DNA of 35,032 nucleotides from Candidatus Tayloriibacteriota bacterium. GTDB lineage: Bacteria; Patescibacteriota; Minisyncoccia; Phycocordibacterales; UBA6065. The position numbers and the translations under genes were made by a program. Position 1 is the first letter of the stretch, and the number at the start of each line of letters is the position of its first letter. The notes beneath the pieces are model-generated. The model was not told the DNA's origin, did not search any database, and saw only the letters and a list, made by a program, of their open reading frames with translations. Location: positions 89,866-124,897 of the forward strand of contig JACRJQ010000008.1 in assembly GCA_016215405.1 (NCBI GenBank). The letters are read 5' to 3'. Below are positions 2,639-21,274 of this stretch, piece after piece.

Positions 2639-4078
2639 CTATTCCTTTCGAAGGAACAGGGGGGCTTCCGGCATCTTGTGCGCGCGGACCAGCGCGAGGA
2701 TCGATTCGGAAACCATAGGGAGTATGGGCTTGAGGAGGATACCTATCCCGTAGACGCGAGAGACGAGGTCGGAGATCACCTCTACCGCCGCGGCCTTGTC
2801 CGTCTTTACGAGCTTGAACGGCGCCTTTTCCTGGATGAGCCCGTCGGCCTCCGCTATCGCCTTCCATACGACGTTCGACGCGGCCTGGATGTCGAAAGAG
2901 TCCATGGCCTTTAGATATTCCTTAGGCGCTTCGGCCTCTGCGACGCTCACAGGAGACTCGATATGCGTCGTCGCCATCTTCATAACGCGAGAGACGAGGT
3001 TGCCGAGGCCGTTCGCGAGGTTGGTGTTGTACGCCAATTTGAAGCGCTCCATGGTAAAGGGCGAATCTTCGAACGAACCTATCTCACGCGCTACGAAATA
3101 GCGCAGGGCGTCGGTGCCGTATTCGCGCACGACGTCGACAGGGTTCACGACGTTGCCGAGAGATTTAGACATCTTCACTCCCCCATCGCCGGTCACGAAG
3201 CCGTTCACGACGACGGTGTGGGTCGGAGGCAAATCTGCGGCGAGGAGCATCGCCTGCCACATGACCGACTGGAAACGCGTATTGTCCTTGCCGCAATACT
3301 GGGTCGGCGTGCCGTTCTTCCAGAACATATCGAATTTGGCCGTATCCTCCGGCCAGCCGAGGGTCGAGATATAGTTCACGAGCGCGTCGAACCAGACGTA
3401 CATGACATGGCTGTCGTCTCCGGGCACAGGGACCCCCCATGACATCTTCGATTTGAGGCGCGATATCGAGAAGTCTTCAAGGCCTCTCTTTATGAATTCC
3501 CTCATCTCGTTCATCCTGAACTCGGGCACGATGGAGTGGCCCTTCTTGTCGTAGAGGGCGAGGAGCCTGTCGCCGAAGGCCGAGAATCGGAAAAAATAGT
3601 TCTCCTCGTCGATAGTCTCGATCTCGAGATGCGGATGTATGGGGCATTTGCCCTCGACAAGCTCGCTCTCGGTCTTCGTCTCTTCGCAGCCGACGCAATA
3701 TCGCGACCTGTAGTTCTTCTTGTAGATATAGCCGTTCTTCTCCACCCTCTTCCAGAACTCTTGAGCGGCACCCTCATGATGGGCGTCCGTGGTGCGTATG
3801 AAATGGACGTCTTCCGAGACGCCTAACAACGGGAGTATCTTCTTGAAATTCGCCGCCGATTCGTCGACGTACGCTTTGACGTCTTTCCCCGCCTTCTCTG
3901 CGGACTTGAAGAGCTTCTGGCCATGCTCGTCTGTGCCGGTGTTGAAGAATACCTCGAAGCCGGAGAGGGTCTTCCACCTCGCGACGATATCGGCGCGCAC
4001 GAACTCGAGAGCGTGCCCCATGTGAGGCTCCGCGTTAACGTACGGCAAGGTCGTGGTTATATAAAAAGGCTTTTTCAT
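2639..4078 (-). CDS. metG: Methionyl-tRNA synthetase (no fused C-terminal tRNA-binding domain)
   Basis: TTLPYVNAEPHMGHA (HIGH-like), DEHGQK, KMSKSLGNVV. Confidence 0.96.
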   Translation of the reverse strand: MKKPFYITTTLPYVNAEPHMGHALEFVRADIVARWKTLSGFEVFFNTGTDEHGQKLFKSAEKAGKDVKAYVDESAANFKKILPLLGVSEDVHFIRTTDAHHEGAAQEFWKRVEKNGYIYKKNYRSRYCVGCEETKTESELVEGKCPIHPHLEIETIDEENYFFRFSAFGDRLLALYDKKGHSIVPEFRMNEMREFIKRGLEDFSISRLKSKMSWGVPVPGDDSHVMYVWFDALVNYISTLGWPEDTAKFDMFWKNGTPTQYCGKDNTRFQSVMWQAMLLAADLPPTHTVVVNGFVTGDGGVKMSKSLGNVVNPVDVVREYGTDALRYFVAREIGSFEDSPFTMERFKLAYNTNLANGLGNLVSRVMKMATTHIESPVSVAEAEAPKEYLKAMDSFDIQAASNVVWKAIAEADGLIQEKAPFKLVKTDKAAAVEVISDLVSRVYGIGILLKPILPMVSESILALVRAHKMPEAPLFLRKE

Positions 4079-4131
4079 AGGTAAGTTTAAGGATATCCCA
4101 AAGGCGCTGAAAGTCTAATGTCTAGGCCGTT

Positions 4132-5247
4132 TTAAGCCTCTATCGTCTGCGGAGCCCTTTTGTCCTTCTGCATGTCGTCGATAAGCTCCATGAGCATGGA
4201 GGCTACCGGGACGGAGAGGATGATACCGAGAAAGCCCGCGAGCTCGAAGCCCACGAGAAGGGAGAGGATGACGAGTATCGGGGGTATGCCGACGATCTTC
4301 TTCACGACGAGAGGGTATATCAGATGGTTCTCGAACTGCTGGATGATGAGATAGAGGCCCGCGACGATGAAGGCTGAGGTGGCGCCGCCGTCGAGGTAGA
4401 CGCTCGCGACCGCAGGCACCGCCGCGATGATAGGGCCGAAGAGAGGGATCATCTCGAGGAATGCAGCGAGAACGGCGAAGAGGAGAGCGTTCTTTACTCC
4501 GAGGACCATAAGGCCGAGATAGACGAGTATGCCCACGAGGATGGCGAGGACGAGCTGGCCCTGCATCCAGAGTCCGATCTTCGTCTGGGTCCTCCTCCAG
4601 AGCCCTATCACGTAGCTCTCCTTAGAAGCCGGGATGACGACGCGCAAGAACTTCTCGACACCGTCATCTTGCACCGCGAGATAGAACGAGAGAGCGATGA
4701 TGATGAAGAACGATATTATCCCTCCGAATACCGAGCTCGCCGAGTGGACGAATCCGGCAGAAACCGCGGTGATGGCCTCGTTTATGCCCTGAAGAGCGCC
4801 CTGGATCGAGAAGTCGTCCGAGCGCGGGCTCTGGATCGCCTGTTGTCCCTCTTCGATGCCGCGCGCGACCGACATAGCGATTTCTTTCGACTCTTCGGTC
4901 TTCTCTGCCCCTAAAGGATTCCAGAGCTCTGTCGATTCGAGATACTCGGGAACGGAATTGAGGAATGCGGAAGTGTCCTGGAGGAATTGAGGCACTAAGG
5001 TATAGAACGCTCCGACGAGGACGCTCGCGATAAGCGCGTAGACGATGAGGGCCGAGAACACGCGATAGACGCCTCGCCTCATGAACCATTTGATCATAGG
5101 CTCGAGAGACGAGGCTATGACGACGGCGGTCAGGACGACGAGAACGATCCCTTTAAGCGAGAAAAGCGCGAACGTCGTAACGATAAGAAGTATCGCCTTT
5201 ACGATAGTGCCGGTCGTTATCTCTATGCGCGCCGTTCCGTTTATCAT
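4132..5247 (-). CDS. AI-2E transporter family (PerM/YdiK-like) membrane permease
   Basis: Multiple hydrophobic helices; family-like segment FLEMIPLFGPIIAAVPA. Confidence 0.85.
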   Translation of the reverse strand: MINGTARIEITTGTIVKAILLIVTTFALFSLKGIVLVVLTAVVIASSLEPMIKWFMRRGVYRVFSALIVYALIASVLVGAFYTLVPQFLQDTSAFLNSVPEYLESTELWNPLGAEKTEESKEIAMSVARGIEEGQQAIQSPRSDDFSIQGALQGINEAITAVSAGFVHSASSVFGGIISFFIIIALSFYLAVQDDGVEKFLRVVIPASKESYVIGLWRRTQTKIGLWMQGQLVLAILVGILVYLGLMVLGVKNALLFAVLAAFLEMIPLFGPIIAAVPAVASVYLDGGATSAFIVAGLYLIIQQFENHLIYPLVVKKIVGIPPILVILSLLVGFELAGFLGIILSVPVASMLMELIDDMQKDKRAPQTIEA

Positions 5248-5253
5248 GGGTTT

Positions 5254-5259
5254 ATGATA
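5254..5259 (-). promoter_or_regulatory. -10-like hexamer TATCAT, 6 nt upstream of ATG at 5247
   Basis: TATCAT-AAACCC-ATG on the minus strand. Confidence 0.55.
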
Positions 5260-5272
5260 CTACGAAGTCGCC

Positions 5273-6544
5273 TTAAAAGCTGAGCACCTTCTCTATCGCC
5301 TCCTTATTAAGGCCCTTGCCTATGGCCGCGACGGTAAGCTTCCGGTTATCGAACATGAGACCGGCGACCCGCATGATGTCCTCGGCCGTGATTATGGAGA
5401 ATATGCCCTCGAACTCCTCGGGGGTGCGCATCTTGTCAGAGAGTATCTCCTGGTCCGCGAAGAACTCCGCCATGCTGTCGGAGGTCTCGAGCGACATTAT
5501 CGTATGAGCCTTTATGAACTCCCTCACTTTGTGGAGCTCGGCATCCGAGACAGGCTCACTCTTAAGCCTCGCGACCTCGCCTAAGGTCGCGCCTATTATC
5601 TCGGGGACCCTCTCTGCGGTGGTGCCTGTATAGATCGAAAAATTGCCGAACGAATTATACGAAGATCCCGACGCGCCGATATAATAGCCGGCCCCCATCT
5701 CGTCGCGGAGCTTCGCGAAGAGGCGCGACGACATTCCGCCGCGCAAGACGTTCTTTATAAGGTGAGCGACGAACCTGTCTGGGTGGCGCCTGTCGAACGT
5801 TCTCCAGGCGAGGACGATGTGCGATTGGTCCGTATCTTTCTCAAGGAGGACGGTCTCTGGCGCGGCCTGCTCTCTGTCTTTAGTGAGGAATTCTTTGCCC
5901 GCCTCTCCTCCGTAGGCGGCGCCAAAGGTATTTTTCGCCCACTCGAGCATGAGCGCCTCGTCGATCCCTCCCGCTATGGTCACTATGGTGTTCCGCGGCG
6001 TGTAATGGAGGTTGTGATACGCGATAAGGTCGCCGCGGGTAATGGCCCTCACAGTCTCCTTGGTCCCGAGGATATCGCGTCCGGCAGGCTCTCCCCCGTA
6101 CATGTGCTCGCGGAGAGCATCGTGCACCCTCTCCTGCGGATCGTCTCGGTACATGTCGATCTCGCCCAAGACGACGCCCTTCTCCTTCGCTATCTCTGCT
6201 TCGGGAAAGGTAGAGTTTATATATATGTCGGCGACGATATCTCCGATATCCTCGAAATGCTTTACGTCTGCCTTTGCATAGAACCCCGTCACCTCGTTCG
6301 TCGTAAAAGCGTTGTACGCGGCGCCGATGGAGTCGAGCTCTATGGTTATATCTCGCGAGGAAGGCCGCTTCGAGGTCCCCTTGAAGCACATGTGCTCGAG
6401 GAAATGCGAGATGCCGGATTGCTCGGGTGTCTCGTAATAGGCGCCGGTCGCGATGTTTACGAGCACGGTGACCGTGGGGTTCCCTTTCATGGGGACTGTT
6501 ATGACGCGGACGCCGTTTTGAAGTGTGGTTTTGGTGAATCGCAT
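5273..6544 (-). CDS. M16 family zinc metallopeptidase (mitochondrial processing peptidase-like)
   Basis: HFLEHMCFKGT (HxxEH motif) plus conserved downstream E. Confidence 0.93.
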   Translation of the reverse strand: MRFTKTTLQNGVRVITVPMKGNPTVTVLVNIATGAYYETPEQSGISHFLEHMCFKGTSKRPSSRDITIELDSIGAAYNAFTTNEVTGFYAKADVKHFEDIGDIVADIYINSTFPEAEIAKEKGVVLGEIDMYRDDPQERVHDALREHMYGGEPAGRDILGTKETVRAITRGDLIAYHNLHYTPRNTIVTIAGGIDEALMLEWAKNTFGAAYGGEAGKEFLTKDREQAAPETVLLEKDTDQSHIVLAWRTFDRRHPDRFVAHLIKNVLRGGMSSRLFAKLRDEMGAGYYIGASGSSYNSFGNFSIYTGTTAERVPEIIGATLGEVARLKSEPVSDAELHKVREFIKAHTIMSLETSDSMAEFFADQEILSDKMRTPEEFEGIFSIITAEDIMRVAGLMFDNRKLTVAAIGKGLNKEAIEKVLSF

Positions 6545-6651
6545 ACGGTGTTAATACGAAACGAGTATAGCATTTTGCCTCGATTCATCGCCTTAAATCT
6601 TCGGGCCGAGATTCATCAGTTTTTTAGTCCTTTCCTTTGTCGGGCACAGGT

Positions 6652-6670
6652 AATCCGCCCGAAGCGGATT
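6652..6670. repeat. Short hairpin AATCCGCCCGAAGCGGATT
   Basis: Near-identical (18/19) to the hairpin at 32333-32351. Confidence 0.8.
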
Positions 6671-6732
6671 CCTTTCAGCTCGCGCCGTCGCACTCCGCTA
6701 ATCCCGTCAAAGGAAATGGACGGAGGGTTAAG

Positions 6733-6771
6733 AGAAAGGCCTGTTTTAGCAAAGCTAAAACAGGCCTTTCT
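6733..6771. terminator. 18-bp perfect hairpin AGAAAGGCCTGTTTTAGC-aaa-GCTAAAACAGGCCTTTCT
   Basis: Direct inverted repeat in the glyS/M16 intergenic region. Confidence 0.75.
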
Positions 6772-6782
6772 TGAGCCATTCC

Positions 6783-6808
6783 AAACACCTCAACCAGTTG
6801 AGGTGTTT
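6783..6808. repeat. 12-bp hairpin AAACACCTCAAC-ca-GTTGAGGTGTTT
   Basis: Direct inverted repeat adjacent to 6733-6771. Confidence 0.75.
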
Positions 6809-7040
6809 GCCTTAATCTCCAACCCTCGGACGAGTCCTCATTCTTTCGAGCGAGGTGAGGAACGGGATGGGACCTGTTCCGTAAAACCTTTTGAGACGGT
6901 ACTCCGTCCAAAAGGTGTACTGCTCCTGTAAGGAGATGCCCGAGGAGTAGCCTCCGAGGGACGCTTGCGCCCCGCAGCGAGAAAAATGCGGGTCGGCTAA
7001 AAGAAAAGCTCTTTGTCTCTTGTCTGAAAGGCAAGTAAAA

Positions 7041-8369
7041 CTATCTTCCCAGCTTCTGAGAAAGATACGATGTGAGGTCCTTAAGCTCGATCTTCTCTTG
7101 GGCGCCCGTATCGCGGTCGCGAACGGTGACCGGATTGCCATCTTTCTCTATCGTCTCGAAATCGACAGTGACGCAGAAAGGCGTCCCGATCTCGTCCTGG
7201 CGGCGATACCTCTTGCCTATCGATCCCGCCTCGTCGTATTCGACCGAGCCGAACTCCTGCCTGAGAACCTTGTAGAGCTCGCGGGCCTTAGAGGTAAGCG
7301 CTTCCTTGTTCTTGAGGAGCGGGAACACGGCGACTTTGACCGGAGCGACCGATGGCGAGAGCGCGAGATACACCCTCTTCTCTCCCCCGAGCTCGTCTTC
7401 GCGGTAGGCCGACGAGAGGACGGCGAGGACCGTGCGATCGACGCCGAACGAGGGCTCGATCACATGAGGAACGAAGCGGACCTTCGCTTCTTCGTCGAAA
7501 TACGAGAGGTCGACCCCGGAGACGCGCGTATGAGCCTTGAGGTCGAAATCGGTGCGGTACGCGAGGCCGTAGAGCTCCTTGCGACCCATCGGATAGTCGA
7601 ACTCGAAGTCGATCGTCCTCTTCGAATAATGAGCGAGGTCGCCCGGAGCGATCTCGTGCTCGTGGACGCTCTCCTTCGGAAGGCCGATGTCATCGGTAAA
7701 GGCGTGAATCTGCGACACGAAATGGTCGAACGTCCCCTCCCATTCTTTTGGATCTACGAAATACTCTATCTCCATCTGCTCGAATTCGCGGGTACGGAAT
7801 ATGAAATCTCGGGGCGATATCTCGTTTCGGAACGCCTTGCCTATCTGGGCCATGCCGAACGGGAGCTTGGGATGGAACGTATCGAGGATGTTCTTGAAGT
7901 TCACGAACATGCCCTGAGCGGTCTCGGGCCTCAGATAGGAGACGGAGGAGTCGTCCTCCATGGCGCCTACGTACGTCTTGAACATCATGTTGAACTGGCG
8001 CTCCGCTCCGAGCTTGCCTCCGCACTCGGGGCATTTCGCTTTATCCTCGAGGTGATCGGCGCGGAAGCGCCTTTTGCATTTATCGCATTCGACGAGGGGG
8101 TCTGAGAATCCTCCCACGTGTCCGGAGGCGACCCACGCGTTCTGATTCATGAGGATCGCCGCGTCCATGCCGTACATATCGTCGCGGCTAAGGACGAATC
8201 TCTTCCACCAGATATTCTTTATGTTGTTCTTCAAGGCGACGCCATGAGGGCCATAATCCCACGTGCCCGCGAGGCCGCCGTATATCTCCGAGCCCTGGAA
8301 TATGAAGCCTCGCCTCTTCGCGAGGGAGAGTATCGATTCCATCACCGCGTTCTCTTCTTTCTTTTTCAT
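7041..8369 (-). CDS. glyS: Glycyl-tRNA synthetase (single-chain, class II)
   Basis: GFIFQGSEIYGGLAGTWDYGPHGVALKNNIKNIWW, RPETAQGMFVNFKN, FRNEISPRDFIFRTREFEQMEIEYF. Confidence 0.96.
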   Translation of the reverse strand: MKKKEENAVMESILSLAKRRGFIFQGSEIYGGLAGTWDYGPHGVALKNNIKNIWWKRFVLSRDDMYGMDAAILMNQNAWVASGHVGGFSDPLVECDKCKRRFRADHLEDKAKCPECGGKLGAERQFNMMFKTYVGAMEDDSSVSYLRPETAQGMFVNFKNILDTFHPKLPFGMAQIGKAFRNEISPRDFIFRTREFEQMEIEYFVDPKEWEGTFDHFVSQIHAFTDDIGLPKESVHEHEIAPGDLAHYSKRTIDFEFDYPMGRKELYGLAYRTDFDLKAHTRVSGVDLSYFDEEAKVRFVPHVIEPSFGVDRTVLAVLSSAYREDELGGEKRVYLALSPSVAPVKVAVFPLLKNKEALTSKARELYKVLRQEFGSVEYDEAGSIGKRYRRQDEIGTPFCVTVDFETIEKDGNPVTVRDRDTGAQEKIELKDLTSYLSQKLGR

Positions 8370-8392
8370 AGTGATTTAAATGGGATGACCGC

Positions 8393-10312
8393 CTATTCCT
8401 GCACCGCCTCGTCTCCCGCCTTGTAGAAGAGGTCCGAGGACGTCCTCGTCGAGAGGGATTGGGCCGAATTCCTCAGGGTCGCTCCGGTGAAGGTATCGAG
8501 GCCGACGATCGAAGCCTGACTTACGATCTCCGGCGCCGAGCCTACCTGATTCGCAGAAGGCTTAAAGGATACCTGGAAGGCGACCTGCTTCGCGCCGGAG
8601 CCTACGGAGGCGTTCCGCGGCACGGACCCGACGTTCCATGTGACGATGCCTCCCGTGGGATTGTAGCTTATGTTCGCGTCGGCAGGGCTCGTGACTCCCG
8701 TCCATGAGACGTACGGAGGAAGGGCCGCCTCCACCCGTGCGCCCGTAATGCTATTCGAAGTGTTCGTGACTGTCCATACCACGGTATAGGTCGTCGGCTG
8801 GTCGACGCGAGGGGGCACGGGACCGCTATTCGATATAGGCCCCTGCGAGCGGAGGACGCGAGCCGAGAGCGAGAGGTTAGAGACGAGCTTTACGGAACGG
8901 CCCGACGCGGCGAGAACCTCCTGCGGAGCGCCGCTCTCGTCGACTCGGCCCCCCTGGGCGGACGCGGATACGGAGATGAGGGGGTTTATAGCCGATTCGC
9001 CAGGAATCGACGAGACGGAAGAGAACGAGAACGTCACGCGTCCGCTCTCGCCCGGAGCGAGGGAGTCGAGGCCCGCGGTCCTGCCCGCCTCCCAAACGAT
9101 CGCGTTAGAGAGCGAATCGTAATAGCCGCCGTTCTCGACGGAGACAGACCCCTTGTCGAGGACGTTTCCAGAAAGCTTCGCCTCGATGCGGGCGCCGCTT
9201 ATCCTCCCTTGGCTGTTGTTCTGCCAAAGGATGTCCGCGCGCACTACCTTGCCCGGCTCGGCGGCGAGGTCTGCCCTTTCGCCGTTGAGAGCGACGTCGA
9301 GGGCGAGGAACGGCCTCTCTATGGCGAAGGAATGGTCGCGGCTGATGATAGTCGTCGCTATCTCGCGTTCGTTAGACTGGCTCTGGATGCCGACATTCGC
9401 GCGCACCACCTTCTCTTCCCCGTCTTGGCCTTCGAGGGAATACCTTATTGCGAAGCTTTTCTTCGCTCCCGGCGCGAGGTCGCCGATGCGCCATATATTG
9501 TTGCCGTAAGACGGCTGCGGAGTCGCGGACACGACCGAAAACCCGAACGGATATTCGAGCGACAGGAGAAGGTCTTTGACGGGCGAAGGGGTGTTCGAAG
9601 ATACGGTGACCACCATGTCGGAAGACTGGCCGCCGAGGACCTTCGAGAGGGCGTCTATGGCGACGAGGACAGGAGAGGACGAGACCGCGACGCGATAGGA
9701 TTTTTCCTTGAAGAATATGGCGTTCGATCCCGCGGTGCGATATTCGGCGCTGAATTTTATCTCTCGTCCCGTTCCCTCGGGACCGAACATGATCGAGCGA
9801 AGAGTCTTTTGCGCGATCGAGTTAGAGCCGATATCGCCGAGGGGAAACCTCACCTTGCCGAGGTCCCTCTCGGGGTATTCGGGATCTTTCGTGCCCTCAG
9901 GGTATTCCGCGACGAGCTCGACGAGCTCGATCCCGGTCGTATTCCTGTTCACCACGGAAACATTGAGGGCCAGGACGTCGCCGCCCGCGACCGAGGAAGG
10001 GCCTTCTATGAGGATGTCCACGTTCTGGACCGAAACGAAATTCTTACCTCCGAAGAGCGTATATCCCCCTATCGCCGCGGCGACGAGGAAGAAACCGAAC
10101 GCGGCTACGAAAAGGTAGCTGTAAGCCTTCCGTATCTTCTTCATCGATCCCTTGACCTCTTCAGGTCGGGGCTCTTCCCCTTTCCACTCTTCGGGCACGC
10201 TCTCATCCCTGGCATGCAGGTCGTGCCGAGGCGATTCTGGAAACCGATCGTCCCGCGAATAGAGGCTCTTTTGAACTCGCTCGAGCGGGCTTTTCTTATC
10301 GGATTGGAACAT
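8393..10312 (-). CDS. Large membrane-anchored extracellular protein with DUF11-like repeats
   Basis: One N-terminal TM segment (YLFVAAFGFFLVAAAIGGYTLFGG) followed by repeated TYTVVWTVTNTSNSITGARVEAALP-type beta modules. Confidence 0.7.
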   Translation of the reverse strand: MFQSDKKSPLERVQKSLYSRDDRFPESPRHDLHARDESVPEEWKGEEPRPEEVKGSMKKIRKAYSYLFVAAFGFFLVAAAIGGYTLFGGKNFVSVQNVDILIEGPSSVAGGDVLALNVSVVNRNTTGIELVELVAEYPEGTKDPEYPERDLGKVRFPLGDIGSNSIAQKTLRSIMFGPEGTGREIKFSAEYRTAGSNAIFFKEKSYRVAVSSSPVLVAIDALSKVLGGQSSDMVVTVSSNTPSPVKDLLLSLEYPFGFSVVSATPQPSYGNNIWRIGDLAPGAKKSFAIRYSLEGQDGEEKVVRANVGIQSQSNEREIATTIISRDHSFAIERPFLALDVALNGERADLAAEPGKVVRADILWQNNSQGRISGARIEAKLSGNVLDKGSVSVENGGYYDSLSNAIVWEAGRTAGLDSLAPGESGRVTFSFSSVSSIPGESAINPLISVSASAQGGRVDESGAPQEVLAASGRSVKLVSNLSLSARVLRSQGPISNSGPVPPRVDQPTTYTVVWTVTNTSNSITGARVEAALPPYVSWTGVTSPADANISYNPTGGIVTWNVGSVPRNASVGSGAKQVAFQVSFKPSANQVGSAPEIVSQASIVGLDTFTGATLRNSAQSLSTRTSSDLFYKAGDEAVQE

Positions 10313-10318
10313 GAGAGG

Positions 10319-10324
10319 ATTATA
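10319..10324 (-). promoter_or_regulatory. -10-like TATAAT, 6 nt upstream of ATG at 10312
   Basis: TATAAT-CCTCTC-ATG on the minus strand. Confidence 0.65.
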
Positions 10325-10329
10325 GCATT

Positions 10330-10818
10330 TTATAGCTGCGTCTCTTTGAGAGCCTTGTTTATGGCCATGATCCTCTCCCTCTCGCTTTTGCCTTGGAGCG
10401 AGGACAGGTCGAGATAGCCGAGAGCGGAGAGGACGGCGGAGAGGGCGCCGAGCTCTTCCCCGTTCTCGCCAAGGAGGACGCCTAGAGACGAGAAGAGGCT
10501 GTCGTTACGCTCCTCTCCCTGGACGAGCCTCTTTACGAGCGAAAGCACTCGGGCGCGCGCCGCCTCTCCCCCCTTAGGAAGCTCCTCTCTCTGGGCGCCG
10601 GTGAGCCTCCAGAACTCTCTGCCTCTCACGAGAGAGAGGGTGACGAAGGAAAAATCGTCGAGATTATAGCGGAGCTTCGAATCGAGCTTGCGCACTCCCT
10701 GAGCCCTCGCCGTGACGAGGCCGAAGTCTTCCGTGTATATCGAATAGGATTTCGAAGCCTCGCCCGAAGGAGAGCTTGCAAGTATCCACCCTCTGGTCGT
10801 ATAGACGGCATATGACAT
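10330..10818 (-). CDS. recO: DNA repair protein RecO, short form
   Basis: N-terminal OB-fold-like sequence (ARAQGVRKLDSKLRYNLDDFSFVTLSLVRGREFWRLTGA); only 162 aa. Confidence 0.7.
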   Translation of the reverse strand: MSYAVYTTRGWILASSPSGEASKSYSIYTEDFGLVTARAQGVRKLDSKLRYNLDDFSFVTLSLVRGREFWRLTGAQREELPKGGEAARARVLSLVKRLVQGEERNDSLFSSLGVLLGENGEELGALSAVLSALGYLDLSSLQGKSERERIMAINKALKETQL

Positions 10819-10824
10819 GGATAA

Positions 10825-10830
10825 ATTGTA
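10825..10830 (-). promoter_or_regulatory. -10-like TACAAT, 6 nt upstream of ATG at 10818
   Basis: TACAAT-TTATCC-ATG on the minus strand. Confidence 0.55.
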
Positions 10831-10943
10831 CCAAGAATATCGCTTGCTTCGGCCGAGGCTTTGGGGTAGAACGGTCCTAAAGGCCGGCTCTTTGCAATCG
10901 GCATCGACCGGAGGCTTTCGAAGGAAATCTACCCCATCCAGCT

Positions 10944-11546
10944 ATGAACCAACTCCTACTTCTCATGTCAGGACCCTCGGGAGCGGGCAAAGGCACCCTT
11001 TCTCCCCTCTTGTGCGCCGCGAGAGGCTTCCCGCTATCCGTATCGGCAACGACTCGGCCGCCAAGGCAAGGAGAGGTCGATGGCAAGCATTACCACTTCC
11101 TCTCGCCTAAGCGCTTCGAGGAGATCGTCGCGAGCCAGGGATTCTTGGAATGGGCAATAGTCCACGGCAAGCATTCCTATGGGACGCTCCGCGGCGAGAC
11201 CCTCGCTTCCCTACGAAAGCACGGAAAGCTCCTCGTCGAAGCTGACATCCAGGGGCACCGACAGATCCGACGCTCGAAAGAGCCCCAGATCGAGGTCGCT
11301 CTCAAGAGCGTCTTCATCGCTCCAGGGAGCATGGACGAGCTGCGCGAGCGCATCCTCAATCGGCAGCCGGATATGCCCGCAGACGAGCTCTCTCGGCGGC
11401 TCTCTTCGGCGGAAGCCGAGATGGCCGCGAGGTTCGAATACGACCACGTGGTCGTAAACCGCAAAGGAAGGCTCGACAAGGCCCTCTGCGAGCTCTGCAG
11501 CATAACCGACCTCTGGCTCTCGGGCTGCGCCGTATCCACGGCATGA
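10944..11546 (+). CDS. gmk: Guanylate kinase
   Basis: LMSGPSGAGKGTL P-loop, SATTRPPRQGEVDGKHYHFLS, FLEWAIVHGKHSYGT. Confidence 0.93.
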   Translation: MNQLLLLMSGPSGAGKGTLSPLLCAARGFPLSVSATTRPPRQGEVDGKHYHFLSPKRFEEIVASQGFLEWAIVHGKHSYGTLRGETLASLRKHGKLLVEADIQGHRQIRRSKEPQIEVALKSVFIAPGSMDELRERILNRQPDMPADELSRRLSSAEAEMAARFEYDHVVVNRKGRLDKALCELCSITDLWLSGCAVSTA

Positions 11547-11610
11547 GCCACACGATGGCTAAAAACGCGAAACGCCCCAGGTGCATCCTGCGGCGTTTTT
11601 CTTTTATCGG

Positions 11611-14600
11611 CTATCTCTTGAATCCTATCCTGAACCTATATTCCTCTATGGCAAGCTCCTCTTTCTGAGGAAGGCTTCCGTGCTCGACCCCTGTGACGAG
11701 AGTCACGCGACGGATGTCTTGGATGAACCCTCGGACGAGCTCCTTGCCCTTCTCGTCGGAATCGAGGATAAGCGACACCTTGTCGCCTACAGTGAGGCCC
11801 TCAGACTTGCGAAGGTCTTGGATCGCGCGGATAAGGTCTCGAGCGACGCCTTCCCTCTTGAGCTCGGGCGTGACGATCGTGTCGAGCTCGACGCCCTTCG
11901 CGTCTGCTCCGGCGCCGGTTATGAGAAGCACCTCTTTGACGTTCGTCTCGTCTTTGAGGATCTCTCTTAGCTCGTCCCAATAGTCGGGCTCCGTGCCGTC
12001 GTGCTTTATGGTGAGTCGCGAGAGAGGCTGCCTCACCGGTATCTTGTTCGAAGAGCGCTGCATATGGGCCATAGAGGCGAACGACCTGGCGAGAGACATG
12101 GCGGCGAGAGCGCGCTCGTCGGGATTTCCCGCCTCGGGCCAGTCGCATAGATGGACGCTCTCAGGTCCGACTGCGGGCTTTACCTTCTGGTAGAGGTCTT
12201 CGGCATAGAAAGGAGCGAATGGCGCGATGAGCTTCGATATCGCGAGGAGGACGAAGCGGGTCGTGTCGAGGGCCGCCTTCTTGTCGAGGGCGTCGTCTGA
12301 CTTGAACCTGTCGCGCGAGCGCCTCAGGTACCATGTCGAGAAATCGTCCACGAACTCGCGGATCGCGCGGGTGGGCTCGAGGAGCTTGTAGCTGTCGAGC
12401 TTCGACGTCGAGAGGTTCACGAGCTCGAAGAGGCGGGCCAGTATCCACTTATCGAGCACGTTTCGGGAGTCGCCCTTAGGCGCGGCGCTCTCGCCTTTTT
12501 CCGCATATATCTCGTAGAACGTATAGACGTTCGAGAGCATATTGAAGAGCCTCTTTACGATCTCGTCTACGGTCTTCTCGTCGAAGTTCTTCGAATCGCC
12601 GGGCTGGTTCACCGAATACATCCAGAAGCGCAGGGCGTCCGCGCCGTATTTTTCGATCATGTCCCACGGGTTCACCACGTTGCCTACCGACTTCGACATC
12701 TTCTTGCCGTCCTTATCGAGGATATGGCCGAGGCATATGACGTTCTTGTACGCCTTGCCCTTACCGAGCAAGCCTCCGATGGCATGGAGCGTATAGAACC
12801 ATCCGCGCGTCTGGTCGATCGCTTCGGATATGAAATCAGCCGGATACGGAAGCTTCTTTTTGCCCCAGAATCCCTTGAACTTCTCGTCGAACGGGAAATG
12901 GTCCTGAGCGAACGGCATGGCTCCAGAATCGAACCAGACGTCCATCACCTCCTTTATGCGGCGAAGCTCTTTGCCCGAATCCGAGATAAGCACGATATCG
13001 TCGATGTACGGCTTGTGGAGATCGAGAGCGAACTCCTCGTCGTGCGGCAAAGGCACATAGTCGAAAGCGTGCATCTCGGCGGTCTTTTGGAAATGCCGGC
13101 GAGAATCGTGGAAGAGCCTGTTTATAGAAGGGTCCGCCTCGATGCCGTTATAGAGGGTATTGAGCACGGCGCCATGGCTCACGATGAGGACGTTCTTTCC
13201 TTCGTAGGCTCTCTCTATATGGGCAAGGGCTTCGAACGCGCGCTTCTTCACCTGAGCGGGGTTCTCGGCGCCAGAGAACTTGACTCCGCGACGGACGAGA
13301 GTCTCGGTCTCTTTCCAGAGCTTTCCCTCCCTCTCCTCTCCAACGTTATATTCTCGGAGGCGCTTGTCGTAGACGATCTCGTTCGAATCGATGCCGACCA
13401 TCTCGGCTATTATCCGCGCGGTCTCCTTGGTGCGCAGGAAGTCCGAGGCGACGATGACGTCGACCCCCCATTCGCGGAGCTCTTTGACGCGCTTCATGAC
13501 CTGTTCGCGCCCGTTCTTGGTGAGATGGTACTTGTCGAGCTCGCGGAAATTCGATATGCCCATCACGTTCGATTCCGACTCGCCGTGGCGCAAGAGCATA
13601 TAGCGGTTGCGCGCTTTCTTCGCGCGCTTCTTAAGGGTCGCGACCGAATCGACGACCATGGTCTCCGAGCCGTCCTCGCTCTGCCAGATAGGCAAAGGCG
13701 TGCCCCAGTACCTCTCGCGGGATATCGCCCAATCCTTTAGGTCGCGGAGCCATTCGCCGAATCGGCCGTCCTTTATGTGCGAAGGCTCCCAGTTTATCCC
13801 CTCGTTCTCCTTTATGAGGGAATCGCGGACCTCGGACATCCTTATATACCAGGAATCGCGCGCGAAATAGATGAGGGGCGTCTTGCACCTCCAGCAATGC
13901 GGATAGGTATGCTCGTGCTTCTCTTTCTTGAAAAGGAGGCCCTTGCGCGCGAGGTCTTTTACGATCTCGACCGCGGTCTCCTCGTCCTTCACGAACCTTC
14001 CCTCCAAGAACTCTGTGCCTTCTATGAAATGACCGGAGTCGTTCACGAGATGGCGCTTCGGAAGGCCCGCCTTCGTCCCGAGCGCGAAGTCGTCCGCTCC
14101 ATACATGGGCGCTATATGGACGATGCCAGTTCCGTCGGTCGTAGTCACGAAATCGGCCGCATAGACCTTAAACGCGTTACCGGCTTTCTTGGCTTCGCCT
14201 CTCGAGAGGCCGTCGCGAAGATACGTATAGAGCGGCTCGTAGGAAGATCCGACGAGCTCCTTCCCCTTTATCACCGAATCGAGGGAGTGCTCTTTGCCCG
14301 CGAACACCGTCGCGACCCTCTCTTGCGCGAGGATGTACGTCTTTCCCTCGCACGAGACTCGGGCATAGGCGATATCCTCTCCGACGGCGAGCGCCACATT
14401 CCCAGGAAGGGTCCACGGCGTCGTCGTCCACGCGAGAAAATATTCCTCCTTCTCGCCTATCGCCTTGAAAGCGACATAGACGGAAAGCTCCTTTATATCC
14501 GCATAGCCTTGGGCGAGCTCATGAGAAGAGAGCGCGGTCCCGCATCGAGGGCACCACGGCACCACGCGATAGTCTTTATAGAAGAGGCCCTTTTCGTGTA

Positions 14601-15102
14601 TCTTTCCCATTATCCACCAGAGCGACTCTATGTATGAGCTCTCATAGGTGACATACGGGCTCTCCTGGTCGACCCAATAGCCGATGCGGTCGGTGAATCT
14701 GCCCCACTCGTCCATATATTTCCAAACGCTCTCGCGGCACTCCTTGTTGAACTTGCCGACGCCGTACGCCTCGATCTCCTTTTTCGATTTAAAGCCGTGA
14801 GCTTTCTCTACCTCGAGCTCTACGGGAAGGCCGTGGGTGTCCCACCCTCCTTTCCTGCGCACGCGAAACCCCCGCATGGTCTTGTAGCGCGGGATGGCGT
14901 CTTTGAACGCGCGTGCCTCTACGTGATGTATGCCGGGACGGCCGTTCGCGGTCGGGGGCCCTTCGTAGAACACGAATTCTCCCTTCGGGGCGGGCTTTTC
15001 GAGGGTCTTTTTAAAGATATCTCTCTCTTTCCAGAACCCGAGGATCCTCTCTTCGGACTGGGCGAGCTTCGATTTCGGCTTGGTCTCTTGGGAATCTGCC
15101 AT
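11611..15102 (-). CDS. ileS: Isoleucyl-tRNA synthetase with an inserted histidine-phosphatase domain
   Basis: GPPTANGRPGIHHVEAR, GWDTHGLPVE, WTTTPWTLPGNVALAV editing motif, DVWFDSG, KMSKSVGNVV; insert spans about 13050-13612. ATG start at 15102 preferred over the TTG start at 15123. Confidence 0.95.
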   Translation of the reverse strand: MADSQETKPKSKLAQSEERILGFWKERDIFKKTLEKPAPKGEFVFYEGPPTANGRPGIHHVEARAFKDAIPRYKTMRGFRVRRKGGWDTHGLPVELEVEKAHGFKSKKEIEAYGVGKFNKECRESVWKYMDEWGRFTDRIGYWVDQESPYVTYESSYIESLWWIMGKIHEKGLFYKDYRVVPWCPRCGTALSSHELAQGYADIKELSVYVAFKAIGEKEEYFLAWTTTPWTLPGNVALAVGEDIAYARVSCEGKTYILAQERVATVFAGKEHSLDSVIKGKELVGSSYEPLYTYLRDGLSRGEAKKAGNAFKVYAADFVTTTDGTGIVHIAPMYGADDFALGTKAGLPKRHLVNDSGHFIEGTEFLEGRFVKDEETAVEIVKDLARKGLLFKKEKHEHTYPHCWRCKTPLIYFARDSWYIRMSEVRDSLIKENEGINWEPSHIKDGRFGEWLRDLKDWAISRERYWGTPLPIWQSEDGSETMVVDSVATLKKRAKKARNRYMLLRHGESESNVMGISNFRELDKYHLTKNGREQVMKRVKELREWGVDVIVASDFLRTKETARIIAEMVGIDSNEIVYDKRLREYNVGEEREGKLWKETETLVRRGVKFSGAENPAQVKKRAFEALAHIERAYEGKNVLIVSHGAVLNTLYNGIEADPSINRLFHDSRRHFQKTAEMHAFDYVPLPHDEEFALDLHKPYIDDIVLISDSGKELRRIKEVMDVWFDSGAMPFAQDHFPFDEKFKGFWGKKKLPYPADFISEAIDQTRGWFYTLHAIGGLLGKGKAYKNVICLGHILDKDGKKMSKSVGNVVNPWDMIEKYGADALRFWMYSVNQPGDSKNFDEKTVDEIVKRLFNMLSNVYTFYEIYAEKGESAAPKGDSRNVLDKWILARLFELVNLSTSKLDSYKLLEPTRAIREFVDDFSTWYLRRSRDRFKSDDALDKKAALDTTRFVLLAISKLIAPFAPFYAEDLYQKVKPAVGPESVHLCDWPEAGNPDERALAAMSLARSFASMAHMQRSSNKIPVRQPLSRLTIKHDGTEPDYWDELREILKDETNVKEVLLITGAGADAKGVELDTIVTPELKREGVARDLIRAIQDLRKSEGLTVGDKVSLILDSDEKGKELVRGFIQDIRRVTLVTGVEHGSLPQKEELAIEEYRFRIGFKR

Positions 15103-15148
15103 ATGTAAGGTGTAGAGTAGCAATTTTGGCCTCTTTTATCAAAACGAA

Positions 15149-15171
15149 GGGCCGCGCTCTGTGCGCGGCCC
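15149..15171. terminator. Hairpin GGGCCGCGC-tctgt-GCGCGGCCC
   Basis: 9-bp GC stem between the hypothetical CDS and ileS. Confidence 0.6.
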
Positions 15172-15175
15172 GGTC

Positions 15176-15682
15176 TTATTTCATGAAAAGGACGATGTCC
15201 CCGGCGGCGAGTATCCGCGGCGAATCCGGAAGGACCTGCGCCGTGAAGTGGTCTCTCTCCCACTCGAACGCGACCATGGTCGGATAGTCGTCTCCGAAGA
15301 AGAGCCCTGTGTTCATGCACACGAGCCTCCCTTTTCGCGCCTCCTGCGGGTAGCTTCCGACGAAAGCGACGCATTCGTCCCGGTTAGCGGGACGCGAATG
15401 GCCGAGAGGGCCTCGCAAAGGGTTGAGGAACCTGTGAACGGAGACCTCTTCCTTCGCGCGCTCTATGCAGAACGCGGCGAGAGTCGCGATCGGGAACTTC
15501 GACTCCCTCTCCGAGAACACCCTCGCTTCGCCGCTTATGTTGGCGAACTGAGCCCGAACCGAGAGGAGAGAAGAGGAATTGTAAGAAAGCATAAAGCGCT
15601 GAGGATTGAACCGTCCGGTCCTCCGCGCGACATACATCGCTTCGCCTACGCTTACGATACGTGAATTTGTCATAAAGAGCAT
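15176..15682 (-). CDS. Hypothetical protein (MLFMTNSRIVSVGEAMYVARRTGRFNPQRFML...)
   Basis: Open frame between ileS and argS; the ORF's upstream extension to 15808 overlaps argS and its terminator, so a start near 15682 or 15673 is preferred. Confidence 0.6.
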   Translation of the reverse strand: MLFMTNSRIVSVGEAMYVARRTGRFNPQRFMLSYNSSSLLSVRAQFANISGEARVFSERESKFPIATLAAFCIERAKEEVSVHRFLNPLRGPLGHSRPANRDECVAFVGSYPQEARKGRLVCMNTGLFFGDDYPTMVAFEWERDHFTAQVLPDSPRILAAGDIVLFMK

Positions 15683-15707
15683 CAGGGTTGATTCTGCCTT
15701 TTCGCCG

Positions 15708-15752
15708 GGGAAAGTCAAAGGCCCGCGCGAAGCGCGGGCCTTTGACTTTCCC
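15708..15752. terminator. 21-bp perfect hairpin directly after the argS stop
   Basis: GGGAAAGTCAAAGGCCCGCGC-gaa-GCGCGGGCCTTTGACTTTCCC. Confidence 0.85.
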
Positions 15753-17471
15753 TTACATCCTCTCGGGAACCTTCGCGCCGAGGAGGCGCAACCCGTTCTC
15801 GAGCACAATCCGGACCGCAGCGGTGACCGCGACCTTCTGGGGAGAGCCGGGGTCAGCGGCGTTCACGATCTGGGTGTTCGCGTACCACGCGTTGAACATC
15901 GACGAGAGCTCTATGAGATATGTCGCGACGTGGTGCGGCGCCTTTTCCGTCGCCGCGCGGGATACGGTCTCCGGGAACCGCGCGAGATGCCTTTCGATAG
16001 CGCTCTCTCCTGCGCTTTCGCCAACCTTTCCCTTCACCCTCTCTTTCTTCGCCTTCTCGAGGATCGACTTAGCGCGAACGGCGGTATAGAGGAGATACGG
16101 CCCGGAATCGCCTTCGAAGGAGATCGATTTCTCGAAGTCATAGATTATATCCGACGACGTGACCTGCTTGAGTATCGAGTATTTTATGGCCGCGACGGCG
16201 ACAAGAGACGCTACCTCCGCCTTTCTCTTCTCGTCCATGTCCCTGTCCTTGAGCCTCTCTGCGACCATCGCTTCGACGTCTCGTACGAGGGACTCCCCCG
16301 TTATGACGTTCCCTTTTCGCGACGACATCTTCCCGGATGCGAAACGAAGCATGCCGTGAGAGACGTGCTCGGTCGCTTTCGCTGCTTCAGGCTCGATCTG
16401 CTCGAGAGCCTTGAGCACCACCCTAAAGAAATCGGACTGCTCGTTCGCTGTTATGACGATCGACCGGTCGGCCCTCACTTTCTTCCACTTCTTCGTGTTG
16501 AGCCCGAGCTCCTTCGCCTCATATGTCGGCACCCCCATGGAATTCACGAATACGCGGGTATGGAGCTTCGGATCGAACCTCTCTCCCTTAAAGACTATGG
16601 CCCCTTCCGACCTCTCGAATATGCCCTTCTTGAGATACTCTTCGACGAGCGCCACGCCGTCATGGACCACCTCGCTTTCGAGCACGTAATAGTCGAACTT
16701 CGTCCCCAGCTTCTTGTATATCTCCTCGAAATGGGCGAGGCTCCATTTGCGACCGACCTTATAGAGCTTCATGAGCTTGCGGTCCCTTCCTTCGAATATC
16801 GATTTGTTGAGCTGGTCGATCTCAGGCTTCGCGGCGGGATCGTCTTCGTACGCATTCGAGCCTTCGACGTAGCAATCGCCTAGGAAGGCGGTCCTCTCAG
16901 AGAGCGGCGCTCGCTTCGACGGCATCCTCTCGATGTTCCTCTGTATGCTCCAGAGGGCTTTCGCGACATGAAGGCCGACGTCGCCCTGATAGCACATGCG
17001 GCGGACCTTGGCGCCTTGGGATGCGACGAGGCGAGCGATCGCCTCTCCTATGGCGTTCGACATGAGATGGCCGATATGGAATACCTTGAACGGATTAGGG
17101 TCCGTATACTCGACGAGGATCTTTCGTCCGCGCCATTCGTTCGACGAGCCGTAGAGCTCTTTGCGCTTGAGGATCGTCTCGAGCTCGGCCGCGTAGAAGT
17201 CCTTCGAGAGATGGAAATTCACGAAGCCTGCCCCTGCGACCTCGACCTTCTCTACGAAGCCTATGTTCTGACGGGCAAGCTCTGCGGCGATCTTGCCTGC
17301 GAGCTCGCGAGGGTTCGCCTTCGCCGACTTTGCGAGCGAGAGCGCGACATTCGTCGCGAAATCGCCAAAAGAAGGGTCGGCTGGGTGCTCGAGCACTATC
17401 TCGGACGCCGAAAGGCCGAGCGCCTTAAGAGCCTGTTCTATAGCCTTTTTTAGCTTGGTTTGAATATCCAT
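15753..17471 (-). CDS. argS: Arginyl-tRNA synthetase
   Basis: VEYTDPNPFKVFHIGHLMSNAIGEAIARL, GDVGLHVAK, SSRKGNVITGE. Confidence 0.95.
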   Translation of the reverse strand: MDIQTKLKKAIEQALKALGLSASEIVLEHPADPSFGDFATNVALSLAKSAKANPRELAGKIAAELARQNIGFVEKVEVAGAGFVNFHLSKDFYAAELETILKRKELYGSSNEWRGRKILVEYTDPNPFKVFHIGHLMSNAIGEAIARLVASQGAKVRRMCYQGDVGLHVAKALWSIQRNIERMPSKRAPLSERTAFLGDCYVEGSNAYEDDPAAKPEIDQLNKSIFEGRDRKLMKLYKVGRKWSLAHFEEIYKKLGTKFDYYVLESEVVHDGVALVEEYLKKGIFERSEGAIVFKGERFDPKLHTRVFVNSMGVPTYEAKELGLNTKKWKKVRADRSIVITANEQSDFFRVVLKALEQIEPEAAKATEHVSHGMLRFASGKMSSRKGNVITGESLVRDVEAMVAERLKDRDMDEKRKAEVASLVAVAAIKYSILKQVTSSDIIYDFEKSISFEGDSGPYLLYTAVRAKSILEKAKKERVKGKVGESAGESAIERHLARFPETVSRAATEKAPHHVATYLIELSSMFNAWYANTQIVNAADPGSPQKVAVTAAVRIVLENGLRLLGAKVPERM

Positions 17472-19978: not shown

Positions 19979-21274
19979 ATGACACGACAAATCATCATCG
20001 TAGACGACGTCGCGCCGGAGCCTAACGCGATGCTCCAAGCCCTTTACTCGCGAAGCCCCAAGAGCGTCACCGAGCATCTCGAGCAGGTAAAGAAGAACGG
20101 TGCCGAGAAATTCATGGCCTCTTACTACGTAGGCTACGGCCACAAGTCGATCGGCGACTGCGGCACGACCTCAATCTTCGTCGAGAACGTCTCTATGCTC
20201 GTGGCGAAAGCGGTCCAAGACTGGCCGCTCTATAGCGGACAAGAGGCCTCGACCCGCTACCTCGATATGTCGAAGCAAGAGGTGCTCGACCCTCTAGGCT
20301 CCGCCGAGGGTAGGGCGATACAAGACGAGTGGATGCGATTCTACGTCCACGCCCTCGAAACTCTCCAGCCCGCGCTCAAGGCCCGATTCCCTATAAAGGA
20401 AGGCGAGAAAGAAACCCTCTACGACAAGGCGATCAAGGCGCGCGCCTTCGACATCGCCCGCGGATTCCTGCCTGCCGGCGCGACCACCTATGCATCGTGG
20501 CACACGAACCTCCGCCAAGCCCACGACCACTTAAAGGAGATGCGCCACCACCCTCTCGAAGAGGTGCGCGAGGTCGCGAAGGAGATCGTGAAGTCCCTCC
20601 AGGCGAAATACGGCTCGAGCTTCCTTCACAAGGAATACGCCGTCGAGGAGGAATACCTCGCGAAGTCGGAATCCGAATTCGCCTACTTCGATGACCTGTC
20701 GATAAAGGATTTCTCGTATGAGGTAAGGCTTGATCTCGACGGCCTCAAGAAGCACGGAAGGCTCCTTACGGAAAGGCCCCCGAAAGCAGAGCTCCATCAT
20801 CGCTTCAGGCAATACGGAGACATCGTATTCTCCTTCCCTCTCGATTTCGGGTCATACCGCGACCTCCAGAGGCAGCGAAGCTCGGTACAGGAAATGCCTC
20901 TCCTTACGACTCGCCACGGCTTCCATCCATGGTATCTCGAGCAGCTTACGCCCGAGCTCAAGAGAGAGGCGCTCGAGGTCCTCAAGGCTCAAGAGAGTCG
21001 CATCGCCGCCCTTTCAGCGTCAGACGAGGTAAAGCAGTACTATACGGCGATGGGATATACAGTCGCGGTAAAAATGTCCTGCTCTCTACCGTCTGCGGTC
21101 TATATCGCCGAGCTCCGCTCTGCAGACACCGTCCATCCGACCTTGCGCGTCGAGGCGCAGCGCATGGGCGACGCCATAAAGGCGGCCGTACCCGGCATCG
21201 CCATGCATCACGACACCTCTCCAGGAACATGGAATATCAAGCGCGGCGCGCAGGATATCGTTAGAAAAGAATAG
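19979..21274 (+). CDS. thyX: ThyX-like flavin-dependent thymidylate synthase family protein, apparently two ThyX-like halves
   Basis: First half YGHKSIGDCGTTSIFVENVS...SGQEASTRYLDM; second half FSFPLDFGSYRDLQRQRSSVQEMP...ELRSADTVHPTLRVEAQRM. Confidence 0.75.
   Translation: MTRQIIIVDDVAPEPNAMLQALYSRSPKSVTEHLEQVKKNGAEKFMASYYVGYGHKSIGDCGTTSIFVENVSMLVAKAVQDWPLYSGQEASTRYLDMSKQEVLDPLGSAEGRAIQDEWMRFYVHALETLQPALKARFPIKEGEKETLYDKAIKARAFDIARGFLPAGATTYASWHTNLRQAHDHLKEMRHHPLEEVREVAKEIVKSLQAKYGSSFLHKEYAVEEEYLAKSESEFAYFDDLSIKDFSYEVRLDLDGLKKHGRLLTERPPKAELHHRFRQYGDIVFSFPLDFGSYRDLQRQRSSVQEMPLLTTRHGFHPWYLEQLTPELKREALEVLKAQESRIAALSASDEVKQYYTAMGYTVAVKMSCSLPSAVYIAELRSADTVHPTLRVEAQRMGDAIKAAVPGIAMHHDTSPGTWNIKRGAQDIVRKE

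Follow-up and report, generated by a model that had tools for sequence, protein, structure and literature searches.

The ileS gene in a 35,032-nucleotide stretch of DNA from a member of the Patescibacteria (CPR), referred to here as the window, raises the question of what a complete second enzyme is doing inside an aminoacyl-tRNA synthetase. An initial annotation of this DNA proposed that an entire histidine phosphatase domain is nested within isoleucyl-tRNA synthetase (IleRS). This proposal is borne out, as a single ORF encodes both proteins and the Pfam domain His_Phos_1 (PF00300) is matched at amino acids 509–662 of this ORF with an E-value of 2.4e-29 (102.9 bits versus a gathering cut-off of 21.7). 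The interval originally given for the insert, 13050–13612, is correct to within approximately 30 bases of the borders obtained by alignment with 30 relatives (Table 1).

The window IleRS and its insert

The minus-strand ORF (11611–15123) is uninterrupted. Its likely start is the ATG at 15102, and the frame also offers a possible TTG start at 15123. The encoded protein matches TIGR00392 with 882 bits (cut-off 621.4) and contains the Pfam domains tRNA-synt_1, Anticodon_1 and DUF5915 together with the class I signature motif KMSKSVGN, which identifies it as an IleRS. The predicted structure of the full-length protein is confident (AlphaFold pLDDT 90.4, pTM 0.83), and its best fold matches in the PDB are the type-2 IleRS structures 8c8v/8c8u and 1ile. 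Because this is the sole IleRS of the window and of the genome (836 kb, estimated completeness 100%), it is presumed to charge tRNA-Ile. The ValRS frame of the genome (816 aa) has no match to the insert. The genes for MetRS, GlyRS, IleRS and ArgRS lie on one strand of the window within 15 kb (2639–17471). A 431-aa ORF at 19979–21274 has a Thy1 (ThyX) match confined to its first half (aa 23–209), and no Pfam match in its second half.

Table 1. Positions of the inserted phosphatase, its flanks and the surrounding genes in the window
Feature	Position	Strand	Remarks
ileS, IleRS with inserted histidine phosphatase	11611..15102	-	1163 aa from the likely ATG
IleRS flank following the insert (DLHKPYIDDIVLISDSGKEL..DVWFDSG)	12904..13023	-	lacks the second Cys pair
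Inserted clade-1 histidine phosphatase	13024..13608	-	NRYMLLRHG to just before DLHKPYIDD
RHG motif (nucleophile His)	13582..13590	-	R and H each kept in 123 of 124 single inserts
IleRS flank preceding the insert (DWAISRERYWGTPLPIWQSEDGSE..KKAR)	13609..13716	-	lacks the first Cys pair of the usual zinc knuckle
argS, upstream neighbor of ileS	15756..17471	-	TIGR00456, 376.7 bits

The insert is located in the connective region between SRxRYWG and DVWFDSG. Modeled alone it is also predicted with confidence (pLDDT 92.4, pTM 0.90); structure prediction, which had been suggested as a check, thus returns both an IleRS fold and a phosphatase fold. The closest folds (Foldseek, E-values down to 5e-12) include PSP1, PhoE and a riboflavin-pathway phosphatase, all small-molecule histidine phosphatases. 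In fold and catalytic residues the insert resembles the clade-1 phosphatases PSP1 (4ij6), PhoE (1h2e), the alpha-ribazole phosphatase CobC and the archaeal dPGM (NF038349). However, unlike these named enzymes it is nested in a synthetase, and it scores below every equivalog cut-off (74.1 bits versus 225 for dPGM, 57.5 versus 162.9 for CobC, 37 versus 350 for PspA and 54.1 versus 261 for GpmB) and therefore falls into no named subfamily. That it serves as the glycolytic phosphoglycerate mutase is unlikely, since the dPGM cut-offs are missed and the genome encodes a 508-aa PF01676 metalloenzyme of the size of a cofactor-independent mutase.

The RHG motif, the second arginine, the acid glutamate and the second histidine are all present in the window insert. 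Among 124 single IleRS inserts, the second arginine and the second histidine are found in every example and the glutamate in 123. The sole exception at the RHG motif is the protein of locus L087, whose domain alignment is truncated. The initial annotation took the catalytic residues to be intact and suggested an active enzyme, with conservation of the catalytic histidines and arginines in relatives as the check; each residue is kept in at least 123 of the 124 inserts. Inserts from outside the genus are only 31–38% identical to that of the window (alignment of 28 inserts). The retention of catalytic residues in inserts that are mostly 30–40% identical indicates strong selection on function, and purifying selection on these residues maintains the insert. 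Given this conservation the insert is very likely an active enzyme, and probably a phosphomonoesterase tethered to the synthetase. The catalytic residues of inserts in ValRS are kept slightly less strictly, and one such insert lacks the second histidine.

One hint in the initial annotation does not hold, namely that the insert takes the place of a CPxCG-type metal site. Of 116 inserted IleRS proteins, 60 keep both cysteine pairs and 47 have lost both, and loss of the cysteines is therefore independent of insertion.

Distribution of the insert

We identified the insert in the IleRS of 57 of 60 relatives within the order. Two of the remaining genomes (G028 and G035) have a plain IleRS of 974–980 aa, and in the third (G044, 68% complete) the phosphatase is seen only as a free-standing gene. 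The linker that follows the insert reads LPQNENGEPDLHKPYID in the plain IleRS of G035 versus PLPHNENYELDLHRPYID in inserted relatives. Its apparent partial preservation seems to reflect secondary loss of the insert.

Of 191 genomes sampled evenly across the class, 124 match; 121 of these matches read through from IleRS and three are free-standing. A sample of the phylum contains the insert in 47 of 287 genomes (11/12 from the order, 7/11 from the rest of the class and 29/264 elsewhere), with an ileS match in 275 of the 287. Named carriers, identified by scanning a genome collection with a genus-level insert profile, include Kaiserbacteria, Yonathbacteria, Nomurabacteria, Campbellbacteria, Lloydbacteria, Vogelbacteria and Liptonbacteria. 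Profile scans across CPR ileS genes thus show an insertion that recurs far more widely than first reported. An insert at the equivalent place in ValRS occurs in seven of the 287 phylum-sample genomes and in two of the 60 relatives.

That the two genes were joined by an error of assembly or binning is vanishingly improbable: the same junction is common to well over 100 independently assembled genomes (the relatives and class genomes counted above, and named CPR genomes from many projects), which excludes a chance or chimeric contig, and the GC contents of insert and IleRS core are equal (0.573 and 0.572). Beyond the CPR, the insert is absent from all 200 Pseudomonadota genomes searched, and the matches in Vibrio are free-standing genes. 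Loci related to the insert were not found in viral contigs using a close relative as the query, and a viral origin was set aside.

Exchange, gain and loss of the insert

Comparisons within the genus indicate that insert and backbone have different histories. Across four backbone regions, identity between the window IleRS and that of its congener G003 (L011) is 72, 77, 78 and 65%, whereas their inserts are 36% identical. Conversely, between the window IleRS and those of congeners L006–L010 the backbone is 42–58% and the insert 55–59% identical. The switch in identity coincides with the domain borders. Across 7260 pairs of inserted IleRS proteins, the N- and C-terminal halves of the core are well correlated in identity (Spearman 0.77) compared with core and insert (0.29), and 21 pairs combine an insert identity of at least 50% with a core identity below 50%. 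These comparisons show the insert behaving as a cassette that moves between IleRS backbones of divergent sequence.

The IleRS core tree requires 17 state changes, at least 13 of which are forced by well supported branches, and whole-gene transfers contribute to these changes. A single origin of all IleRS inserts as one clade is rejected (AU test, p-AU 0.003). In the phosphatase tree, the insert of L044 (G032, from the same order) branches apart from those of the rest of the order, although its IleRS core groups with the order, as if the phosphatase at this site had been exchanged for another one. The many gains, losses, duplications and exchanges suggest that the insert has a useful job near protein synthesis.

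Stand-alone phosphatases beside ileS

The stand-alone phosphatases most closely related to the insert are the products of genes immediately upstream of a plain ileS. Seven members of the class with an uninserted IleRS have the gene order argS-phosphatase-ileS (Staskawiczbacteria L138, L156 and L174; L178; L207–L209). The gene preceding the phosphatase is confirmed as argS in L138, L174 and L178, and by position and sequence it looks like argS in L207–L209. The phosphatase stop codon is 4–5 bp from the ileS ATG in L138, L156, L174 and L178, and in L142 one extra gene lies in between. In G132 (L210), a free-standing phosphatase is located upstream of an IleRS that already carries the insert. In the window, argS and ileS are separated by 650 bp containing a small ORF (15176–15808) without a Pfam match, flanked by two hairpin-like GC-rich inverted repeats.

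The occurrence of the same phosphatase as a separate gene adjoining uninserted ileS supports a functional tie to IleRS, in agreement with the coupling originally envisaged. The domain may have been inserted from a neighboring gene or released from IleRS.

Multiple and other inserts

Several synthetases carry more than one insert. In one family, IleRS proteins of 1441–1551 aa contain tandem phosphatases (L086, L089, L092–L094). The 1572-aa IleRS of G301 (L075:1167-5882) has three histidine phosphatase domains at three sites, and the ValRS of the same genome (L076) has one more. Two phosphatases are found in the ValRS of L078.

Other enzymes are inserted as well. The IleRS of L077 carries a GNAT domain. 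In the 1544-aa IleRS of G338 (L087:641-5272), a serine hydrolase and a NUDIX domain are inserted in the editing region, and the histidine phosphatase at the usual site is divergent and partly aligned. The inserts of L173 and L105 are serine hydrolase-like, the former by a weak match below the cut-off and the latter by sequence resemblance. A 1277-aa ValRS (L083:827-4657, G288) combines HAD hydrolase, serine hydrolase and histidine phosphatase inserts, and the IleRS of L114:2845-7020 has an HD domain at its C terminus in addition to a phosphatase. Proteins of 437–462 aa from a single family of the phylum (L084, L085 and L090) join a histidine phosphatase to a membrane region that by eye is DedA-like.

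It is tempting, if still speculative, to regard the branched-chain synthetases IleRS and ValRS in Patescibacteria as carriers of exchangeable enzyme cassettes (histidine phosphatase, GNAT, NUDIX, HAD, serine hydrolase, HD). Together these would surround aminoacylation with a hitherto undescribed, built-in layer of protection or quality control, the outcome of recurrent gains, losses, duplications and exchanges.

Possible functions of the insert

Our best guess, to which we assign a probability of about one in three, is that the insert is a tethered clean-up or detoxification phosphatase. It would be attached to IleRS so as to act where the synthetase works. There it would remove phosphate from a small phosphorylated or nucleotide-like molecule that either forms at IleRS (in some lineages also ValRS) or poisons it. 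The phosphatase would then be one of several interchangeable inserted protective enzymes, along with the GNAT, NUDIX, HAD and serine hydrolase domains. We favor clean-up because the phosphatase stays near ileS even when it is separate, because the turnover of inserts is high, and because the inserted enzymes resemble known protective enzymes acting against synthetase inhibitors. In particular, detoxification of aminoacyl-nucleotide compounds that inhibit synthetases is carried out by two GNAT enzymes, MccE and RimL, and by MccF, which is serine-protease-like (PMC3817062).

Of the substrates originally proposed (an aberrant adenylate, an alarmone or a small phosphoester), a small phosphoester would fit better than a pyrophosphate-linked alarmone, since the closest folds are small-molecule phosphomonoesterases. 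Phosphomonoesters are the usual substrates of clade-1 histidine phosphatases. However, we know of no natural aminoacyl-adenylate mimic that is a simple monoester, and this mismatch weakens the clean-up reading. Nearly every genome of the order has the insert, a distribution as compatible with housekeeping as with protection.

Nearly as likely is that the insertion site is a tolerated hot spot. The loop that separates the two zinc-knuckle halves would accept compact domains with adjacent termini, the phosphatase would perform ordinary metabolism uncoupled from charging, and the fusion would be incidental to genome compaction or to coupled expression. Consistent with this, the insertion lies at approximately position 490 of the IleRS profile in more than 100 proteins, unrelated domains are inserted in several loops of the same synthetases, and the phosphatase also occurs free-standing. 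However, the free-standing gene adjoins ileS rather than lying elsewhere, insertions are seen repeatedly in IleRS and in ValRS, the synthetase closest to it, and tandem copies accumulate within the same protein. The congener comparison likewise suggests either that backbones were replaced around an insert that remained in its organism or that cassettes are actively exchanged.

The position of the phosphatase inside IleRS and also ValRS would suit removal of a phosphorylated product or side product of aminoacylation (AMP, PPi-derived species or Ap4A breakdown products). Such removal would relieve inhibition or shape alarmone signaling. The NUDIX domain in the IleRS of L087 points the same way, as this family is known for hydrolysis of dinucleoside polyphosphates. 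We nevertheless consider by-product control unlikely. Most other synthetases in these genomes make the same products, and insertions were seen only in IleRS and ValRS, on which the search concentrated. In addition, the closest folds are monoester metabolite phosphatases, and AMP hydrolysis would presumably waste nucleotide in a nucleotide-poor organism.

Some histidine phosphatases have phosphoproteins as substrates, and the insert might act on the synthetase itself, as a built-in protein phosphatase that undoes phosphorylation by which the enzyme is inactivated, for example of the KMSKS-loop serine by HipA/HipT-type kinases. There is precedent in the inactivation of GluRS and TrpRS through phosphorylation by HipA and HipT kinases (PMC6581861, PMC10627512). 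However, a search that was positive in four control genomes found no HipA_C kinase in any of the 60 relatives, and the closest folds are again small-molecule phosphatases, which makes this explanation quite improbable and reversal of a HipA-type kinase a poor candidate.

Relationship to known systems

The window IleRS has all of the domains and motifs of type-2 bacterial/eukaryotic-like IleRS (TIGR00392; 1ile, 8c8v), including KMSKSVGN, the CP1 editing domain, Anticodon_1 and DUF5915. However, it differs from these in its approximately 190 extra residues, which constitute a complete second enzyme, and in lacking the second zinc-knuckle cysteines. Extra synthetase domains are of a known kind, and an IleRS with a GNAT domain is already in NCBIfam (NF040702, ileS_w_GNAT). 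That family, like the L077 protein, is similar to the window IleRS in carrying an additional small-molecule enzyme. In the window protein this enzyme is a phosphatase rather than an N-acetyltransferase: a Pfam scan gives no GNAT match, and its NF040702 score of 304 is well below the cut-off of 1999.

A CPR TyrRS with a fused PheRS B2 domain and traces of domain swapping has been described (PMC5370408), although IleRS is not mentioned there. Both cases involve a CPR synthetase with a fused domain and traces of domain swapping. However, B2 is an N-terminal RNA-binding domain, whereas the window insert is an enzyme nested in the catalytic region. In the literature searched (fusions, inserts, CPR synthetases and related mechanisms) we found no description of a histidine phosphatase nested in IleRS or ValRS or of its cassette behavior; most subscription journals and domain-architecture pages were outside this scope, and an earlier notice is possible.

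It is unusual for an essential synthetase to house another intact enzyme that most of a bacterial class has retained and that is swapped between backbones. In automatic annotation such proteins go unnoticed, being labeled isoleucine--tRNA ligase. The finding shows that IleRS and ValRS are natural recipients of inserted domains, and it raises a testable question: which phosphorylated compound needs handling beside isoleucine charging in CPR bacteria.
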